From: Planosporangium mesophilum
GTDB taxonomy: Bacteria > Actinomycetota > Actinomycetes > Mycobacteriales > Micromonosporaceae
Assembly: GCF_016863255.1 (NCBI RefSeq)
Contig: NZ_BOON01000031.1
Coordinates: forward strand, 1 to 64,000
Reading direction: 5' to 3'
DNA: 64,000 bases
The position numbers and the translations under genes are program-made. The notes beneath the pieces were generated by a model. That model ran no database searches. It was not told the DNA's origin and was given only the letters and a program-made list of their open reading frames with translations. Of this stretch, positions 45,635-63,685 are shown one piece after another; within the stretch, counting starts at the first letter, position 1; the number at the start of each line of letters is the position of its first letter.

Positions 45635-47521
45635 TTACGGGGCGGGGTACTCCGCGACGTACACGGGCTGGCCGATCTTCGTGGTGTCGGCCGGGCCACC
45701 CACGCCGTTGACGACGTGGTCGATCGTGCCGGCGCTGAGGTTGACCGTCATGATGTGGTGCAGCTTGACGCCCGGCGTCTGCGGTACCTCGAAACCGTTC
45801 TCCGTGTGGATCGACGGGTTGTTCTGGTTGAAGACGTACACGCCCGCGCCGTACAGATTGTGGTTCTTCACCAGGTCGCCGACCTTGTATCCGGCGTAGC
45901 CCTCGACGTCGCCGTTCATCCAGTCGGCCTGCGTCGGCGGGTCGTACGGCAGCTCGTTCTGGTACAGGATGGTCGTGCCCTTGTCGCCGTTCCAGACGGT
46001 GTTGTACCGCTGGAAATGCTCGACGAACAGGCCGGTTGCGGTCACGTTGTCGCCGTTGATGACGGCGCCGTAGCGGCCGGTGTTGGTGTTCCAGCGTTGC
46101 GTGTCGGTGAAGCCCTCGACGCCGTGGTCGCCGCGCCACACCCAGGTGTGGTCGATGAGCACGTTGTCGCTGTTGACCTCGAGCGCGATGTTCGCCTTGC
46201 CGACGTGCGGGCCGCCGACCCGGAAGTACACGTCGGACAGGGTGGTCGGGTTGCTGGCCTGGCTCAGCCCGTGGCCGTGCTGCTTGCCGACCCGCAGCAG
46301 GACCGGCGACTCCTTGAGCCCCGCGTCGATCGTGACACCGGCGACGATGACGCCGGGGACGCCGGCGACGTCGAGCGGGATCGAGCCGTCGACCGCGGTG
46401 AGGGTGGCGTGCCCGAGGCCGAGGACCACGGTGTTGGGGCGTCGCACCTCGATGCTCCGCGCGATGTCGTACACCCCGGGGGTGAGCAGCAGGTTCTTGC
46501 CCAGCGCGAGCTGGACGTTGATCGTCTTCACCGAGTCCGACGGCTTCGCGATGTAGAAGTCGGAGAGCGGAATGGTACGGCCCGGCGTCATGCCGTTGGC
46601 CCACGAGACGCCGCTGGTGTTCTTCTGGGCGGACGGCACGCGGACGTTGGCCGTGCCCTTCGCGTCGACGAAGAGGTACGGCTTCTCACGGCTCAGGGGG
46701 GTGGTGGCAAGCGTCGTGTACGGCGGGTTCGGGAAGGCGGCGTCGTTCGGAGCTCCGACGACGCCCGAGAAGACCTGGTTCCACACGCCGTTGGACCAGC
46801 CGGCAACCTCGCTGTTGCGGGTCAGCCATTGCTGCTGCGACCCGTTGTTGACGGACGGCAGCTTGGAGTCCGCGATGAAGCCGCCGCTGGCGTACTGCGG
46901 GCCGGCCGTGCAGTAGTCCATCAGCGACAGGTTGGCGCCGGTGATGTTGAGCCGGCGCAGCGACACCGCCTGGGAGACGGCCCAGAAGTTCGCCGTGGAC
47001 CGGCAGCCGTCCTGTCCGGCCGAGTTTACGTTGATCGACACGTTGGACAGGGTGCGCCAGAAGTTGACGAGCGCCAGGCAGTTGCTCGTACCGCCGTCGG
47101 CTAGGCAGCGGTTGTAGACCTCGACCTTGCCGTTGATGACGACATCGGTCGGCGAGGCGCCCAAGCCGGCGATCTCGGTGTAGTACCCGACCTTGATCTG
47201 CAGCGGTCGCTCGGCGGTGCCGTAGGTGCCGGGCTTGAACAGGAAGGCGTACCGGTTGGTGCCCATCTCGTTGTTGACCTGTGCCGCGTGCGTCGCGTCG
47301 AGCGCCGCCTGGATCTGGCTGACCGGCATGCTCGGGTCGAAGACCGTGACGTTCGGCCCGAAGTCCCGGGTACCGGAGTGCGGCGGGGAGGCCGCGGCGG
47401 CCGTCACCGTCGTGGCGGTCACGGTCGTCAGTACGAGGCCGAGCACCATGGCCAGGCCGATGAGCCGGCGGCTGGGGTGCGGCCTCGCGGGGTACCGGCT
47501 GCCATGCATCTGGGTCGTCAT
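45635..47521 (-). CDS. Secreted parallel beta-helix protein, GH55-like
   Basis: 628 aa. An N-terminal Sec signal (MTTQMHGSRYPARPHPSRR then a hydrophobic core ending AAAASPP) precedes FGPNVTVFDPSMPVSQIQAALDA and a long right-handed beta-helix with FLFKPGTYG, VVLGLGHATL and NQNNPSIHTENGFEV. I recall close relatives in Streptomyces under the misleading names 'adenylyl cyclase' or 'coagulation factor 5/8 type'; the fold suggests a polysaccharide hydrolase, and GH55 beta-1,3-glucanase is the nearest family I can name. No catalytic residue is assigned. A palindrome at 47683 may control it. Confidence 0.75.
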   Translation of the reverse strand: MTTQMHGSRYPARPHPSRRLIGLAMVLGLVLTTVTATTVTAAAASPPHSGTRDFGPNVTVFDPSMPVSQIQAALDATHAAQVNNEMGTNRYAFLFKPGTYGTAERPLQIKVGYYTEIAGLGASPTDVVINGKVEVYNRCLADGGTSNCLALVNFWRTLSNVSINVNSAGQDGCRSTANFWAVSQAVSLRRLNITGANLSLMDYCTAGPQYASGGFIADSKLPSVNNGSQQQWLTRNSEVAGWSNGVWNQVFSGVVGAPNDAAFPNPPYTTLATTPLSREKPYLFVDAKGTANVRVPSAQKNTSGVSWANGMTPGRTIPLSDFYIAKPSDSVKTINVQLALGKNLLLTPGVYDIARSIEVRRPNTVVLGLGHATLTAVDGSIPLDVAGVPGVIVAGVTIDAGLKESPVLLRVGKQHGHGLSQASNPTTLSDVYFRVGGPHVGKANIALEVNSDNVLIDHTWVWRGDHGVEGFTDTQRWNTNTGRYGAVINGDNVTATGLFVEHFQRYNTVWNGDKGTTILYQNELPYDPPTQADWMNGDVEGYAGYKVGDLVKNHNLYGAGVYVFNQNNPSIHTENGFEVPQTPGVKLHHIMTVNLSAGTIDHVVNGVGGPADTTKIGQPVYVAEYPAP

Positions 47522-47968: not shown

Positions 47969-50900
47969 CTACGGGCCCCCCGCGATACCGGCCCGGCGCC
48001 GGTAGTCGGCCACGTACTCCAGCAGCGCCTTGCCGGTGGGCCGGCGCCCGGGCCGGATGTCGCAGGTGCCGACCTTGCTCTCCTGGATCAGCACGTTCGG
48101 ATCGAGGGTGATGCCGAACAGGTCGTTGGCGGAGTCGCCGGTGGTCAGGCCCTCGCTGCCCCAGTGGTAGGGCAGCCAGATCTGGTGGATCACCCGGCCG
48201 TCCACCCGCAGCGGGGTGAGGCGGTCGGTGACGAGCACCCGCGCCTCGATGGCCGCCCGCGCCGTGACGACGTGCGCCCAGCCCAGGTGCTCCAGCCCCC
48301 GCTCGGCCGCCAGTTCCGGCGACACCTCCACGAACATCGCCGGTTGCAGCTCGGCCAGGTGCCCCACGGTGCGGCTCATGCCACCGGCGGTGTGGTGCTC
48401 GGTGAGCCGGCTGACGGCGAACACGTACGGGAACACCTCGGCGCGCCGGTCCGGCGCGCTCGGGTTGACCGGGTTGTCCTCCCGGTCGTACACCTTGCGG
48501 GTCGGATTGGCCTGCTGCTTGTACAGCGGATTGGACACCGGCGACTCGACCGGCTCGTAGTGCGTCGGCATCGGGCCGTCGATCAGCCCGGCCGGCACGA
48601 ACAGCCAGCCCTTCCCGTCGCCCTGCATGATGAACGCGTCGTCACCGGCGATGCCTTCGACCCCGGGAGTGCCCGGTTCCGGCCGGTACGACGGCGGCTT
48701 CGTCTTCTCGAAGTCGGGCACGTCGTGGCCGACCCACTCGCCCTTCTCGGCGTCCCACCAGACGTACGCCTTGCGCTCGCTCCACGGCCGCCCGTCCGGG
48801 TCGGCGGAGGCGCGGTTGTACAGCATGCGCCGGTTCGCCGGCCAGGCCCAACCCCACTCGCCGGCCACATAGTCCTGCTCCGTGCCGGGCTTGCGCCGGG
48901 CCGCCTGGTTGACGCCGTCCTTGTAGACCCCGGTGTAGATCCAGCAGCCGCCGACGGTGGAGCCGTCGTCTTTGAGCTCCATGAACGTCGACAGTGGACG
49001 GCCGGTGCCGACCTCGTACCCGTTGATCTCGCGCAGCACCGCCTCGGCGCTCGGCTCGTCGTGCTCCCCGTGCGTCGGGTAGTCCCAGGCCAGGTCGAGG
49101 ATCGGACGGTCCCGCCGCTCCGTCGAAGCGGCCAGCTTCTGCCGGATGATGCGGCCCAGGTGGTAGAAGAACCACAGCTCGGACCGGGCGTCGCCCGGCG
49201 GCTCGACGGCCTTCTCCCGCCACTGCAGCAGCCGCTGGGTCTGGGTGAAGGTGCCTTCCTTCTCCACATGGGACGCCGCCGGCATGAAGAACACCTCGGT
49301 GCGGCACTCCTCCGGTACGATCTCGCCGGTCTCGATCTCCGGGCTGTTCTTCCAGAACGTGGCACTCTCGATCATGAACAGGTCGCGTACGACCAGCCAG
49401 TCGAGGTTGGCCATGCCCAGCCGCTGCGCCTTGCCGTGCGCGGAGCCGACGGCCGGGTTCTGCCCCAGCAGGAAGTACCCCTTGATCTTGCCGTCGATCA
49501 TGCTGAGGACCTGCTGGTACGTGCCGTGGTCGCCGGTCAGGCGCGGCATGTACCCGTAGCAGAAGTCGTTCTCCGGCGTCGCCTTGTCGCCCCAGTACGC
49601 CTTGAGCAGGCTCGAGCAGAACGCTCCCGCGTTGTGCCAGAACCCCTTCTGCTCCGGGTGGCGGATGCTTTCGACCCAGTCGGAGTACGTGGCGTGCTGC
49701 TCGTGGTGCGGCATCGGCAGGTAGCCGGGCAGCAGGTTGAACAGCGTCGGGATGTCGGTCGAGCCCTGGATGCTGGCGTGCCCGCGCAGCGCCATGACAC
49801 CGCCACCCGGCCGCCCGGTGTTGCCCAGCAGCAGCTGGATGATCGCCCCGGCGCGGATGTACTGCACGCCCACGCTGTGCTGGGTCCAGCCCACCGAGTA
49901 CACCAGCGCGGTCGTGCGCTCCCGGCCGGAGTTCTCCGCCCAGGCCCGCGCGATGTCGAGGAACTTCTCCCGCGGGATACCGCAGACCTGCTCGACCACC
50001 TCGGGCGTGTAGCGCGCGTAGTGCCGCTTGAGGATCTGGTACACGCAGCGTGGGTGCTGCAGCGTCTCGTCGCGGTCGGGGTCGCTGGGCACCCCCGGAC
50101 CGTGCGACTCGTGCTGCAGCGCGCTGGCGGTCTCCCGCTGTGTCTGCGTGTCCTGCTGGTCGCCCTCGCCCTCGTGACCGTCGTAGTGCCAGCTCGACGG
50201 GTCGTAGGTCCGCGTCTCCGGATCGAAGCCGGAGAACAGGCCGTCGAGGTCCTCGGTGTCGCGGAAGTCCTCGCTGACGATCGACGCCGCGTTGGTGTAC
50301 GCGAGCACGTACTCCCGGAAGTCCAGGTCGTTGCTCAGGATGTAGTTGATCACGCCACCGAGGAACGCGATGTCCGAACCCGCGCGGATCGGCAGGAAGG
50401 TGTCCGCGACCGCGCTGGTACGCGTGAAGCGCGGATCGACGTGGATCACCCGGGCGCCGCGCCGCTTGGCCTCCATGACCCACTGGAAGCCCACCGGGTG
50501 GGCCTCGGCCATGTTGGAGCCCTGGATGATGATGCAGTCAGCGTTGGCGAGGTCCTGCAGGAAGTTCGTGGCGCCGCCGCGACCGAAGCTGGTCCCCAGA
50601 CCGGGGACGGTGGCGGAGTGTCAAATCCGGGCCTGGTTCTCGATCTGGATAGCCCCCACCGCCGTGAAGAGCTTCTTGATGAGGTAGTTCTCCTCGTTGT
50701 CCAGCGTCGCGCCACCGAGGCTGGAGATCCCGAGGGTACGGTTGAGCGGCCGACCCTCGTCGTCGACGTCCTCCCAGGTCGCGGCGCGGGCCGCGATGAC
50801 CCGGTCGGCGATCATGTCCATCGCCGTGTCGAGGTCGAGATCCTCCCACTCCGTCGAGTAGGGCCGGCGGTACTTGATCGTGGTCTGCCGCAGTGGGCTG

Positions 50901-51190
50901 GTCACCAGGCTCTTGCTCGCCGAGCCCTTGGGGCACAGGCGCCCCCGCGAGATCGGCGAATCCGGGTCGCCCTCGATCTGGGTGACCTGGCCGTCTTTGA
51001 CGAAGACCCGCTGGCCACAGCCCACCGCGCAGTACGGGCACACCGACCGGGCCATCGAGTCGGCCTTCCCGGTCCTGGCCGAAAGCTGCTCGGACCGCGG
51101 CGACCTGGCGGCCGTGCCCCGGCCGAGCGGGTCGGTGCCGGTCAGTTGACGATAGACCGGCCAGCCTTCGATCCAGGTACGCACACCCAT
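47969..51190 (-). CDS. fdh: Selenocysteine-containing formate dehydrogenase alpha subunit
   Basis: Oxidises formate to CO2 at a molybdenum or tungsten bis-pterin site. 1073 aa with UGA at codon 190 read as selenocysteine. The N-terminus has the [4Fe-4S] motif Cys51-x2-Cys54-x3-Cys58-x27-Cys86 (CPYCAVGC, RLCPKG); NQARI-U-HSATVPGLG is the active site with the conserved His after Sec; the frame continues with GGATNFLQDLANADCIIIQGSNMAEAHP. The start ATG at 51190 (MGVRTWIEGW) matches relatives as I remember them. There is no twin-arginine signal or membrane segment, so it is probably cytoplasmic. No FdhB, FdhC, selA/B/C/D or chaperone gene lies in the window. A frame stop at 50621 splits it for standard gene finders. 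Confidence 0.93.
50592..50623 (-). other. UGA selenocysteine codon and bacterial SECIS hairpin
   Basis: The UGA (50621-50623) is followed after 18 nt by GGUCU, the loop of a 6-bp hairpin GUCCCC-GGUCU-GGGGAC (50592-50608). Both the spacing and the GGUCU loop equal those of the E. coli fdhF SECIS as I recall it. The element lies inside the coding frame, as bacterial SECIS elements do, and would recruit SelB. Confidence 0.9.
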
Positions 51191-51220: not shown

Positions 51221-51316
51221 GCCGAGCGGGTACGCGCCCTGGTCGGCATCGACTTGATCACCGACCCGGACGTACTGCTGGCCGGCGCGCTGCGGGACGC
51301 ATGCTTCCAGGAGTAG
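51221..51316 (+). pseudogene. 3' fragment of an unidentified gene
   Basis: A stretch with strongly G/C third positions reads ERVRALVGIDLITDPDVLLAGALRDACFQE and ends at TAG (51314-51316), 11 bp before the IclR start. No start codon or ribosome-binding site fits it, and the sequence before it is the FDH start region of the other strand. It looks like the tail of a gene whose front was lost. Family not recognised. Confidence 0.35.
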
Positions 51317-51327
51317 AACGGACACCG

Positions 51328-52071
51328 ATGAAGAGCGCGGACGAGACCCGGAGCGTGCTGGGCCGCGCGCTGGCGATCCTCGAGACGTTCAGCAACGAGC
51401 GGCCGGAGCAGACGCTAGGGATGATCACTCGGTCGACCGGCCTTCCCGCGGCGACGGTCCATCGACTGCTGGCCGAACTGGTGGGCTGGGGCGCGGTGGA
51501 GCGGGTGGGCCGGGGCCGCTACCAGGTCGGCATGCGGCTGTGGCAACTCGGCTCGCTCGCGCCGGGCGGCAGGGGCCTGCGCGATGCGGCGCTGCCGTTC
51601 CTCGAGGACCTGTTCGAGGCGACCCATCAGGTGGTGCACCTGGGCGTCCTCGACGGCCGGAGCGTGCTGTACGTGGAGAAGCTGATGGCGCGGCCCGAGG
51701 TGGAGGTCGTGTCCCGGGTGGGCCGGCGGCTGCCGCTGCACTCGACCGGCCCGGGCAAGGTGCTGCTCGCGTACGCCCCGCCCGTACTGTTCCACGAGGT
51801 CGTCGCCGCCGGCCTGCCCAGGCTGGCAACCAACACGATCACCGACCCGGACGTACTGCGGCAGACGTTGGCGGAGATCCGGAGGACCGGGTTCTGCGTG
51901 TCCCGCGACGAGATGACCCAGGGGGCGTCGTCGGTGGCGGCGCCCGTCTTCGGCCCCGGCCGCGACGTCGTCGCCAGTATCTCCGTCGTCGTACCGAGCA
52001 GCACGACGAACCTGCACTCGCTGGTGCCCGCGGTCCGGATGGCGGCCTCAGGCATCTCCCGCGCCCTGTAG
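51328..52071 (+). CDS. IclR-family transcriptional regulator
   Basis: 247 aa. Winged-helix HTH SVLGRALAILETFSNERPEQTLGMITRSTGLPAATVHRLLAELV, then the IclR effector-binding domain with RRLPLHSTGPGKVLLAY (the conserved TA/TGxGKA-like stretch), FCVSRDEMTQGASSVAAPVF and the C-terminal SISVVVPSS. Start ATG at 51328 with GGAGTAGAACGG upstream. It precedes the MFS and decarboxylase genes on the same strand and probably controls them, and possibly the divergent FDH gene. Confidence 0.9.
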   Translation: MKSADETRSVLGRALAILETFSNERPEQTLGMITRSTGLPAATVHRLLAELVGWGAVERVGRGRYQVGMRLWQLGSLAPGGRGLRDAALPFLEDLFEATHQVVHLGVLDGRSVLYVEKLMARPEVEVVSRVGRRLPLHSTGPGKVLLAYAPPVLFHEVVAAGLPRLATNTITDPDVLRQTLAEIRRTGFCVSRDEMTQGASSVAAPVFGPGRDVVASISVVVPSSTTNLHSLVPAVRMAASGISRAL

Positions 52072-59913: not shown

Positions 59914-61036
59914 CCGCCTGCGTCGTGTCCCCGTCGTCGCCGGCTGGGTGGCGGCCGTCGCGCTGCTGGCCGTCGCGCCGCTGTACGTCGATGCGTTCTG
60001 GCTGCAGGCCGGGCTGGTCACGATCGCGGCGGCGGTCGGCGCGGTCGGGCTGACGCTGCTGGTGGGCGCGGCCGGCCAACTGTCGTTCGCGCACGCGTTC
60101 TTCCTCGCCGTCGGTGCGTACGGGTACGCGTACCTCAGTGGACGGTCGAGCAGCGGCACGACCGTCGGGCTCGGCGTACCGCCGGTGCTCGGCGCCGTCG
60201 GCGCGGTCGCCGTGGCCGGCGCGCTCGGCCTGGCCTTCAGCCCGGTCGCGAGCCGCCTGCGCGGCATCTACCTCGGCGTGGCCAGCCTGTCACTGGTATT
60301 CGTGGGGCAGCACCTGTTGCAGAACCTCACCTCGGTCACCGGCGGCTTCAACGGGCGCCCCACCCCGGCGTTCACCGTGGCCGGGTTCGACTTCACCGGT
60401 ACCGAGCCGGAGTTGACCATCGCCGGCGTGCCGTTCGGGGCCGTCGAGCGGCTGTGGTACCTGAGCCTGCTCGCGCTCGCCGGTGCCTGCCTGCTCGCCC
60501 GCAACCTGCTGCGCGGGCGGGCCGGACGCGCCTGGCGGATGATCCGCGACAGCGAGGTCGCGGCCGCCGTCATGGGCGTGGACGTGCGCCGGGGCAAGGC
60601 GAGCGCGTTCGTCCTGTCGTCGATGTTCGCCGGGGCCGCGGGGGTCCTCAGCGCGCTCGCCCTGGACCGGGTCGTCCCGGACTACTTCGGGCTGCTGCTG
60701 TCCATCGAGTTCCTCGCCATGATCGTCATCGGCGGCCTCGGTTCGGTCGCCGGTGCGGTGACGGGCGCCGTGTTCGTCACCGCGCTGCCGCTCGTGCTGG
60801 CCCGCTACAGCGGCGTCCTGCCCCTGGTCGCAGACGCCGGCAGCGGTGGCGTCGACGCCTCCGTACTCGCGCGGTTCTGCTACGGAGCCGCGGTCGTTCT
60901 CGTGATCCTCGTCCAGCCCGACGGACTGGCCGGGCTGGGCCGCCGCATCCGGTCGCGGTTGCGCCGCACCACCCCACCGCCCCCACAGTCCGGGCCCGAC
61001 GCGTGCCCGGCCGGCGTTCTCCAGGAGACCCCATGA
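59906..61036 (+). CDS. livM: Branched-chain amino-acid-type ABC permease LivM
   Basis: 376 aa from the GTG at 59906. About ten hydrophobic segments; LLVGAAGQLSFAHAFFLAVGAYGYAYL and VMGVDVRRGKASAFVLSSMFAG are the LivM motifs. The C-terminal ~30 residues are Pro/Arg-rich and cytoplasmic. ATGA overlap with livK. Confidence 0.92.
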   Translation: MSDRLRRVPVVAGWVAAVALLAVAPLYVDAFWLQAGLVTIAAAVGAVGLTLLVGAAGQLSFAHAFFLAVGAYGYAYLSGRSSSGTTVGLGVPPVLGAVGAVAVAGALGLAFSPVASRLRGIYLGVASLSLVFVGQHLLQNLTSVTGGFNGRPTPAFTVAGFDFTGTEPELTIAGVPFGAVERLWYLSLLALAGACLLARNLLRGRAGRAWRMIRDSEVAAAVMGVDVRRGKASAFVLSSMFAGAAGVLSALALDRVVPDYFGLLLSIEFLAMIVIGGLGSVAGAVTGAVFVTALPLVLARYSGVLPLVADAGSGGVDASVLARFCYGAAVVLVILVQPDGLAGLGRRIRSRLRRTTPPPPQSGPDACPAGVLQETP

Positions 61037-62316
61037 AACACCGTGCCGTGAAAAACCGCGCTTTACGTCTCACCCTCGTTGCCGCCGCGGTGACGGTCCT
61101 CGTCACGGCGGGCTGCTCCACCAAGGCAGCCAAGACGGGCGGTACGAGCGGCGCCGACGGCGTCAAGACCGGTGTCGGCGTCACCGCCGACACCATCACC
61201 CTCGGCGTCCTCACTGACATGTCCGGCCCGTTCGCCCCGATCGGCAAGCAGTTGGTCCAGATCGGTGAGCTGGTACGCACGGACATCAACAACTCCGGCG
61301 GCATCTGCGGCCGCAAGCTGGAGTTCCAGGTGCAGGACCACGGCTACAACGTGCAGAAGGCCGTCACCCTGTACAAGTCGATGGAGCCCAACTCGCTGGC
61401 GTTCCTGCAGATCCTCGGCGCCCCGGTCAACGCGGCGCTGGAGGAGGAGGTCAAGCGCGCGAAGGTACTGACGCTGCCCGCCACCTTCGCCCAGGCGCTG
61501 CTGGCCAACCCGTACGTGGTGCTCCCCGGCGCCACCTACGACCTGGAGCTGGTCAACGGGGTCTCGTACCTCGCCGAGCAGGGCAAGATCGCCAAGGGCG
61601 ACGCGATCGGGCACATCTACCAGGAGGGCGAGTACGGTGCCAGCGCGCTCGCCGGCAGCAAGTACGCCGCCGAGAAGCTGGGGCTGCGGCTGGTGCAGCG
61701 GCAGGTGAAGGCCACCGAGGAGGACATGGCCGGCTACGTCTCCTCGCTGAAGGCCGAGGGGGTCAAGGCGGTCCTGCTGACCTCGTCGCCCAAGCAGACC
61801 GCGTCGGTGGCCGCGGTCGCCAAGTCGATCGGCCTGGAGGTGCCGCTGGTCGGCAACAACCCGGCGTTCACCCAGAGCCTGCTCGACACGCCCGCCGGGC
61901 CGGCGCTGCGCGCGAACTTCCTGTGGTCGAGCACGGTGGCGCCGCTGTCGGCCGACCGGCCGGGGCCCAAGGCCGCGCTCGCCCTGTACGCCAAGGGGTA
62001 CCCGAACGAGAAGCCCAGCTCCTCCGTCGCGTCCGGGTACGGCGGCGCCATGGTCTTCATCGAGATCCTGCGCAAGGCCTGCCAGAACAAGGACCTGACC
62101 CGCGAGGGCATGGAGACCGCGTTCCGCCAGCTCGGCCAGGTCGACACCGGCGGGGTGTACCCGCCGCTGGACTTCAGCAAGCCGGGCAAGCCGTCGAGCC
62201 GCTCCAGCGGTATCGGCCAGCCGGACCCCGCACAGACCGGCGGCCTGAAGGAGCTGCGCGCCCCGTTCGTCTCCGACCTCGCCAAGGACTACCCGGCCGG
62301 GGCGGACGCCAAGTAG
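61033..62316 (+). CDS. livK: Branched-chain amino-acid-type ABC substrate-binding lipoprotein
   Basis: 427 aa. Lipobox VTAGCSTK (Cys about residue 28), short linker, then a Peripla_BP_6 core: TITLGVLTDMSGPFAPIGKQ, and AEQGKIAKGDAIGHIYQEGEYGASAL, with VKAVLLTSSPKQTASVAAVAK in the second lobe. ATGA start at 61033. Last gene of the liv operon; the terminator at 62349 follows. The ligand is not identifiable; an aromatic or short-chain acid is as likely as an amino acid. Confidence 0.9.
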   Translation: MKHRAVKNRALRLTLVAAAVTVLVTAGCSTKAAKTGGTSGADGVKTGVGVTADTITLGVLTDMSGPFAPIGKQLVQIGELVRTDINNSGGICGRKLEFQVQDHGYNVQKAVTLYKSMEPNSLAFLQILGAPVNAALEEEVKRAKVLTLPATFAQALLANPYVVLPGATYDLELVNGVSYLAEQGKIAKGDAIGHIYQEGEYGASALAGSKYAAEKLGLRLVQRQVKATEEDMAGYVSSLKAEGVKAVLLTSSPKQTASVAAVAKSIGLEVPLVGNNPAFTQSLLDTPAGPALRANFLWSSTVAPLSADRPGPKAALALYAKGYPNEKPSSSVASGYGGAMVFIEILRKACQNKDLTREGMETAFRQLGQVDTGGVYPPLDFSKPGKPSSRSSGIGQPDPAQTGGLKELRAPFVSDLAKDYPAGADAK

Positions 62317-62623
62317 GACAGTCAACACCCCGTCATCCCCTCCCCCCGGCCCCGCGCCCGGACGGACTCCGTCCGGGCGCGGGGCGCTCCCGTCGGTTGG
62401 CCTCCTCGATCTGCGGCGTCCTCGTCGGTGGCGTCCTGGCGGCCCGTGCCCCGTGGAGAACGCCGGATACGTCACACTCGGAAAGTAATGATCGTCACTT
62501 AGCGCGAAGTTACGGCCGAGTATGGTTTACGACAATCGGCGGTCCCGGGCGTGCACCCGCGGGCCGCCGGCCTGATCCGCGCAGTGGTTACCGAGGCCGG
62601 ACCGGGGCGCGCAGGAACAGAGA
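62317..62623. other. 307-bp gap between livK and the MBL gene
   Basis: Holds the liv terminator (62349-62385) and then the upstream region of the MBL-fold gene. An imperfect 18-bp palindrome AAGTAATGA/TCGTCACTT (62483-62500) lies in an AT-rich patch, a possible operator. No reading frame or RNA gene is seen. Confidence 0.5.
62349..62385 (+). terminator. Terminator of the liv operon
   Basis: Perfect 17-bp GC-rich stem (62349-62365 with 62369-62385) and a 3-nt loop, 33 nt after the livK stop. No U-tract follows. Confidence 0.75.
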
Positions 62624-63685
62624 GTGACGGGGGACGACGCGGTGCTGGTGACCGGTGAGGCGCAACGCGAGGCCTGGCGGGCCAAGACCCTGCCCCCGGT
62701 CGAAGCGGTCCGCCCCGGCCTGTGGTCGGTACCGGTACCGATCCCGCTGAGCCCGCTCCGGTACACCCTGTGCTACCTGTTCGCCACCGACGCCGGCGTG
62801 GTGGTCGTCGACCCCGGCTGGGACACCGACGACGGGCGGGCCGCCCTCTCCGCCGGCCTCGCGGCGGCGGGCGCCGGGCTCAGCGACGTCACCGGCGTCG
62901 TCGCCACCCATGTCCACCCCGACCACCACGGGCTCAGCGGCTGGCTCCGCGAGACCAGTGGTGCCTGGGTCGCGATGCACCCGGCCGAGCGCGACACCCT
63001 GCCGGGCCGGATCTGGCGCGCCACCTCGGCCGGGCCCGGCGACCGCGAATGGCTGCGGGCCCAGGGCGTACCCGACGACGAGGCCGACGCCGTCGCCCTG
63101 GACCCCGAGGTGATGGAGCCGCTGTTCGACATGGCCGAACCGGACCGGCTCCTGCACGACGGCGAGCGGGTACCCGTACCGGGCCGCGACGTCCGGGCGG
63201 TCTGGACCCCCGGCCACACGCCCGGCCACCTGTGCCTGCACGACGCCGACGCCGGGGTGCTGCTCACCGGCGACCACCTGCTGCCCCGCATCAGCCCCAA
63301 CATCGGGGTGAACCGGGCACAGGACGGCGACCCGCTGACCGCGTACCTGGAGTCACTGGAGCTCGTCGCCGGGTACGCCGGCAGCGAGGCGCTGCCGGCC
63401 CACGAGTACCGGTTCCGCCGGCTCGACGTCCGGGCCCGCAGCCTGGTCGACCACCACCGGCAGCGCTGCGAGGAGATCGTCAAGGCGGTGGATGACCTGG
63501 GCGAGGCCACCGCCTGGCAGGTCGCCGCCCGGCTGACCTGGTCCCGGGGCTGGCCCGCGCTGCAGGGGATGCTGCGCCGGATGGCCCTCGGGGAGACCGT
63601 CGCGCACCTCAACCACCTCCGGACCACCGGCATCCTGCGGTCCGACGAGGGCCGTCCGGATCTGTGGCGCCGGGCCGACGGCTGA
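62624..63685 (+). CDS. MBL-fold metallo-hydrolase with C-terminal winged helix
   Basis: 353 aa from the GTG at 62624 (AGGAAC upstream). Metal motifs: ATHVHPDHHGLSGW (HxHxDH), VWTPGHTPGHLCL, LLTGDHLLPRISPN and ALPAHEYRF. The last ~80 residues (DDLGEATAWQVAARL, LQGMLRRMALGETVAHLNHLRTTGIL) form a winged-helix-like domain as in LACTB2-type and related hydrolases. Glyoxalase-II-like thioesterase or ester/phosphodiester hydrolase activity is possible. It stands alone, converging with the GntR gene. Confidence 0.85.
   Translation: MTGDDAVLVTGEAQREAWRAKTLPPVEAVRPGLWSVPVPIPLSPLRYTLCYLFATDAGVVVVDPGWDTDDGRAALSAGLAAAGAGLSDVTGVVATHVHPDHHGLSGWLRETSGAWVAMHPAERDTLPGRIWRATSAGPGDREWLRAQGVPDDEADAVALDPEVMEPLFDMAEPDRLLHDGERVPVPGRDVRAVWTPGHTPGHLCLHDADAGVLLTGDHLLPRISPNIGVNRAQDGDPLTAYLESLELVAGYAGSEALPAHEYRFRRLDVRARSLVDHHRQRCEEIVKAVDDLGEATAWQVAARLTWSRGWPALQGMLRRMALGETVAHLNHLRTTGILRSDEGRPDLWRRADG

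Follow-up and report, generated by a model that had tools for sequence, protein, structure and literature searches.

The question raised by this locus is whether a formate dehydrogenase gene that carries an in-frame UGA, and has none of the usual partner genes beside it, is a real gene, and if so with which partners its product would act. The window (the whole stretch of 64,000 nucleotides that was analysed) belongs to a Planosporangium mesophilum genome of 6.62 Mb in 103 contigs, which is 98.55% complete. The gene, fdhA, lies on the minus strand at 47969-51190 and encodes an alpha subunit of 1073 aa with a predicted selenocysteine (Sec) at residue 190. The analysis showed that this actinobacterial gene for a selenocysteine-containing formate dehydrogenase is real and that it is present as a stand-alone second copy, which is referred to here as the solo copy.

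The frame from 51190 to 47969 is interrupted only by the UGA at 50623-50621 (U190), which sits in the context ENQARIUHSATVPGLG at the position of the metal ligand. The initial annotation had described a frame open on both sides of a UGA at 50621-50623, with the active-site context NQARI before it and HSATVPGLG after it, and this was borne out by translation. It had also expected standard gene finders to call two genes, and a simple gene finder did split fdhA into ORFs at 47969-50512 and 50621-51055. The start at 51190 is backed by homologues that align from residue 1, and 10 of the 11 homologous starts inspected read MGVR, MGLR or MGVK; the remaining one (L031) is cut at a contig end. The protein matched the NCBIfam model NF041513 (formate_DH_Act) with 1983.2 bits against a cut-off of 1400, covering positions 2-1067 of the 1067 in the profile, and TIGR01553 (formate dehydrogenase-N alpha) with 968 bits against a cut-off of 814. 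Its Pfam domains are Molybdop_Fe4S4, Molybdopterin and Molydop_binding (4Fe-4S, molybdopterin and dinucleotide-binding), and the top-scoring solved structures by sequence were the alpha subunits of PDB 1h0h (E 4.4e-214) and 1kqf (E 1.1e-210). FdnG (PDB 1kqf) is exported by a Tat signal, whereas on visual inspection only no such signal was apparent in the solo FdhA, and going by that the protein is probably cytoplasmic.

A UGA could also be a base-call error in a cysteine codon (TGC or TGT misread as TGA), a possibility that the initial annotation had itself raised. Sequences of fdhA were obtained from 177 loci, of which 138 were distinct by protein; these are nearest matches and not a random sample. 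The codon at the Sec position was UGA in 133 and UAG in the other 5 of the 138, and a cysteine codon in none. This contradicts a misreading, as does the full Sec machinery encoded in the genome; no point in support of an error was found, and its probability is close to nil. The five UAG-type loci (L164, L167, L170, L171 and L172) hold fdhA genes of Geodermatophilus and Modestobacter with the same GGUCU hairpin downstream, and ARAGORN found no tRNA in any of them. UAG-coded Sec in this family was reportedly published in 2016. A third fdhA of Planosporangium thailandense (L076; G003:C24, ~92142-95408), which has its own fdhB and fdhC, uses UGA with the loop AGUCU, and its partner in the tree described below was the sole UAG-using Modestobacter gene included (100, starred). 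In this closely related pair the Sec codon has thus switched between UAG and UGA. In Micromonospora andamanensis (L119) an extra UAG was found 8 codons before the Sec UGA of an operon fdhA that is otherwise open, which is either a nonsense change or a sequencing error.

Just downstream of the UGA lies the putative apical hairpin of a bacterial SECIS element, GUCCCC-GGUCU-GGGGAC (50592-50608, minus strand). The 6-bp stem begins after 12 nt from the UGA and the GGUCU loop after 18 nt, exactly the position given for it by the initial annotation. In the SECIS of Escherichia coli fdhF the GGUCU loop likewise lies 18 nt after the UGA, so that loop and spacing are the same, but the stem sequence is unlike that in the window. 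Taken alone the hairpin is unimpressive. The minimum-energy fold of a 58-nt segment favoured other pairs, with a stability not above that of shuffles (z -0.62), and the Rfam model SECIS_3 gave 19.3 bits, under its gathering score of 63.

Compared across homologues the hairpin is strong. All six stem pairs, with G-U allowed, form in 133/133 UGA homologues. Pair 14-28 is U-G in 55 of these, while pair 15-27, which joins two third codon positions, shows compensatory changes (C-G 110, U-A 14, U-G 5, G-U 3, G-C 1); it is paired in 133/133, whereas 20,000 shuffles, made without regard to relatedness, averaged 113.7 and never exceeded 121. GGUCU makes up the loop in 132 homologues and AGUCU in one. 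The loop codon is GGU (AGU once), and GGU accounts for 14.5% of the Gly codons in the rest of these genes; the stem codons CCC and CUG, each present in 133/133, account there for 20.4% of the Pro codons and 58.7% of the Leu codons, respectively. At its third codon positions the hairpin varies far less than would be expected from codon usage. Because of this comparative evidence over 133 homologues the hairpin was judged to be more than chance.

Absence of the whole Sec machinery had been named beforehand as grounds for rejecting a selenoprotein, and selA, selB, selC and selD were all found. They lie on contig C24, with selA at 115782 (410 bits), selB at 117071 (277 bits), selD at 64372 (388 bits) and selC, the tRNA-Sec with anticodon UCA (TCA in DNA), at 68835 (75 bits); fdhD is at 10703 of contig C17 (149 bits), and all five scores are over the family cut-offs. 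The call of a selenoprotein formate dehydrogenase in an actinobacterium is borne out. The same contig carries a second, paralogous fdhA (C24:57097-60387), which also contains a UGA, is 80% identical to the solo copy and matches NF041513 with 1903 bits. It is followed by fdhB (4Fe-4S; 60377-61495), a gene for an NrfD-family membrane protein (61761-62729), an MFS transporter and then, on the other strand, selD. In FdnGHI-type enzymes the alpha subunit is encoded with beta and gamma subunits, which is so at the C24 paralogue but not at the window locus, and the gamma subunit is a cytochrome b, whereas the membrane subunit of the paralogue is NrfD-type (PF03916) and not a cytochrome b of FdnI type. 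Set against the NF041513 family, which it matches over its full length, the solo FdhA showed no difference in the protein itself, and only the adjacent fdhB and fdhC are missing at its locus.

The claim that no beta or gamma gene follows the solo copy held up, in that the FdhB and FdhC sequences of this genome, used as tblastn queries, gave no match in the 20 kb around it (L013). A search of the genome for FdhB at E <= 1e-10 gave a single match, directly after the paralogue. Two alternatives had been offered, that the partner genes are elsewhere or that they were lost, along with the advice to search for them; since one fdhB and one NrfD-type gene follow the paralogous fdhA on another contig, the partner genes are elsewhere and not lost.

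The gene that follows the solo copy on the minus strand (45635-47521) begins 447 bp away from fdhA and encodes a protein of 628 aa, for which no Pfam or NCBIfam match was found at E <= 0.001; the gap is as first described, but the label of glycosidase given to this gene found no backing. On the other side the divergent neighbour (51328-52071, plus strand) encodes an IclR-family regulator by its Pfam domains IclR_C and HTH_IclR, with no NCBIfam model reaching its cut-off, and any functional tie to fdhA is only putative. An exact 23-nt direct repeat occurs at 51256-51278, between fdhA and the IclR gene, and at 51837-51859, inside the latter. Signs of mobile elements around the gene amounted to 8 short two-copy repeat families and 4 short inverted pairs, none of which frames it. 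A link between the solo gene and its neighbours in the window was considered and rejected; the MFS transporter there has no match (E <= 1e-60) in the three further genomes of the genus.

Four Planosporangium genomes came out of the search, that with the window included; G003 among them is Planosporangium thailandense (Micromonosporaceae). Each of the four carries both a solo and an operon copy with UGA, with identities to the window protein of 85-92% for the other three solo copies and 78-81% for the operon copies. In the solo copy of each genome the frame is open apart from the UGA and the hairpin is intact, the copy of G002 (L075) being without its 5' end at the border of a short contig, C195. 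The G002 genome is 86% complete with 6% contamination. The first ~140 residues of its solo copy are 73% identical to the window protein and the rest 87%, and a 90% identical N-terminal fdhA piece lies at the border of another of its contigs, C611 (L226), so the gene seems to be split or chimeric at contig borders and the assembly there doubtful. In none of the four genomes does an fdhB lie just downstream of the solo copy.

The solo loci of the genus have little else in common. In blastn of the window against the other solo loci DNA similarity ended at the gene or no more than 18 bp from it, and comparison of the predicted proteins (57 from the window, 14 each from L073 and L074, 7 from L075 and 11 from L226) found only fdhA in common besides weak matches of <=62 bits. 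A tblastx comparison of the same loci, with 37,863 pieces outside the gene, of which the 40 inspected all stayed below 50 bits, was set aside in favour of these two. Since similarity stops at the gene and only fdhA is shared, the gene has moved, or its surroundings were replaced, within the genus. Within the stretches compared no neighbouring gene is common to the solo loci, and hence no regulatory link of the solo fdhA is conserved in the genus.

A lone alpha gene in changing surroundings may simply be a silent or decaying duplicate without a function of its own. The missing partner genes are as this would predict, as is the lack of a common neighbourhood among the congeners. Further afield, fdhB lay just downstream of fdhA in 132 of the 138 distinct loci, again nearest matches, and was absent in 5, with one locus too short. 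Two fdhA copies each were fetched from 24 genomes of the family, and in 23 both copies are followed by fdhB and fdhC; the remaining one, G140, has one operon and one solo fdhA. At a CO-dehydrogenase/XdhC-like locus G224, also of this family, has a full fdhABC operon (L081) and G140 an inverted solo fdhA (L084). Because it is inverted beside genes that adjoin a complete operon in G224, the G140 copy probably has an origin of its own, in a rearrangement with loss of fdhBC, and what is left there is what breakage of an operon would leave.

Against decay stand the open frames and intact hairpins in four genomes, and the pattern of substitution. In a quick tree of 51 chosen sequences, with SH-aLRT support, the four solo copies formed one clade (98, starred) and the four operon copies an adjoining one (100, starred), the fork uniting the two having 92, not starred. 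The stem branch was 0.19 for the operon clade and 0.047 for the solo clade, and at 38 sites fixed differently between them the family consensus was kept at 25 by the solo and at 8 by the operon copies; from the shorter stem and the greater number of consensus sites, the solo copy is the less changed of the two. Values of dN/dS (NG86) were 0.18-0.27 among the four solo orthologues and 0.17-0.26 among the four operon orthologues, and the solo copy is thus under purifying selection. Of 484 columns with a conservation of >=98% across 121 other FdhA, the solo copies were changed at 14 in any of the four and at 1 in all four, compared with 23 and 6 for the operon copies of the genus, and the window protein deviates at a single column (position 912). 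These columns argue for a working enzyme, with contacts that may be as in the operon enzymes. Decay is accordingly considered very unlikely.

Another explanation is that the solo alpha subunit uses a different electron partner, such as a ferredoxin-like protein, a flavoprotein or an unrelated small subunit, as a separate and perhaps soluble formate oxidase for disposal of folate one-carbon units. The genus-wide lack of an adjacent fdhB fits this, and so does the arrangement in the congener G001, where the solo fdhA begins 45 bp after purU, itself preceded by a sarcosine/dimethylglycine-dehydrogenase-like gene. The PurU of G001 scored over its cut-off, and the enzyme releases formate from 10-formyl-THF; for the dehydrogenase-like protein no NCBIfam model was over its cut-off. 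The arrangement is no more than a hint that in G001 formate from folate one-carbon units is disposed of. Relatives of the two proteins (E <= 1e-10) were absent from the predicted proteins around the solo fdhA of the other three genomes, as far as the stretches reach, and the best homologues of the dehydrogenase in those genomes are 36-48% identical and at other loci. Noncanonical partners are known, and ForCE of Bacillus subtilis is like the solo FdhA in being a catalytic subunit without the usual beta and gamma subunits, but unlike it in having its own partner subunit, ForE (PMC8808070). The near-complete retention by the solo proteins of the positions conserved in the operon family (1/484 columns changed in all four) speaks against a new partner. 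DUF1641, the family of ForE, had no match in the window's genome. A different partner is on balance unlikely, although the 45-bp purU spacing in one congener could mean a separate task and so count against sharing of a partner pair. Equally doubtful is the idea that the whole genus keeps the stand-alone isoform as an enzyme of its own for disposing of formate in folate one-carbon catabolism, with a purU link in one species; it would then borrow FdhB/FdhC from the paralogous operon or use an undescribed acceptor.

Given the family, the UGA, the conserved hairpin, the Sec machinery, the one FdhB and a conserved duplicate under purifying selection, all read from sequence, the best explanation of the whole, at a probability of about 65%, is that the only FdhB/FdhC pair found also serves the solo alpha subunit, which forms a second isoform of formate dehydrogenase. 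The gene product would be the catalytic (alpha) subunit in a bis-MGD formate dehydrogenase containing molybdenum or tungsten. SelB and tRNA-Sec(UCA) would read the UGA as Sec190 on meeting the hairpin just downstream, Sec190 would ligate the metal, formate would be oxidised to CO2, and the electrons would exit via the 4Fe-4S site of the solo FdhA itself. With one FdhB found in the genome and FdhC beside it, the subunit would most likely dock on the FdhB-FdhC pair of the paralogue operon; the docked complex would presumably feed menaquinone, and the second isoform may be under separate control.

Selenoprotein formate dehydrogenases of actinobacteria are already known, as the NF041513 model attests. 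According to a published study (PMC7176365), Actinomycetospora chiangmaiensis DSM 45062 has three formate dehydrogenase systems with Sec-containing alpha subunits, termed multicomponent, its removal of formate is selenite-dependent, and SelA, SelB, SelD and formate dehydrogenase proteins were present at low abundance in its proteome. In FDH1 the Sec-containing FdhA1 occurs with fdhB1, fdhC1, selA and selB, whereas in Table 1 of that study FdhA2 (cluster FDH2, also Sec-containing, abundance 0.002 +/- 0.003%) has no row for a beta or gamma subunit. FDH2 may thus resemble the window locus in having a Sec alpha subunit tabulated without partners, in the family Pseudonocardiaceae and not Micromonosporaceae, but a solo FdhA2 would be a reading of Table 1, since the text terms all three systems multicomponent (PMC7176365). 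Among the open-licence papers listed by a literature search, none was seen to deal with a solo FdhA in Planosporangium.

The solo fdhA is therefore a minor variation on a known enzyme, its modest twist being the conserved solo state, and it leaves knowledge of selenocysteine or of formate dehydrogenase unchanged. It illustrates clearly how a selenoprotein gene is cut into two by an ordinary ORF caller, and with a conserved alpha subunit that lacks adjacent partners one can test whether two catalytic isoforms depend on one FdhB/FdhC pair.
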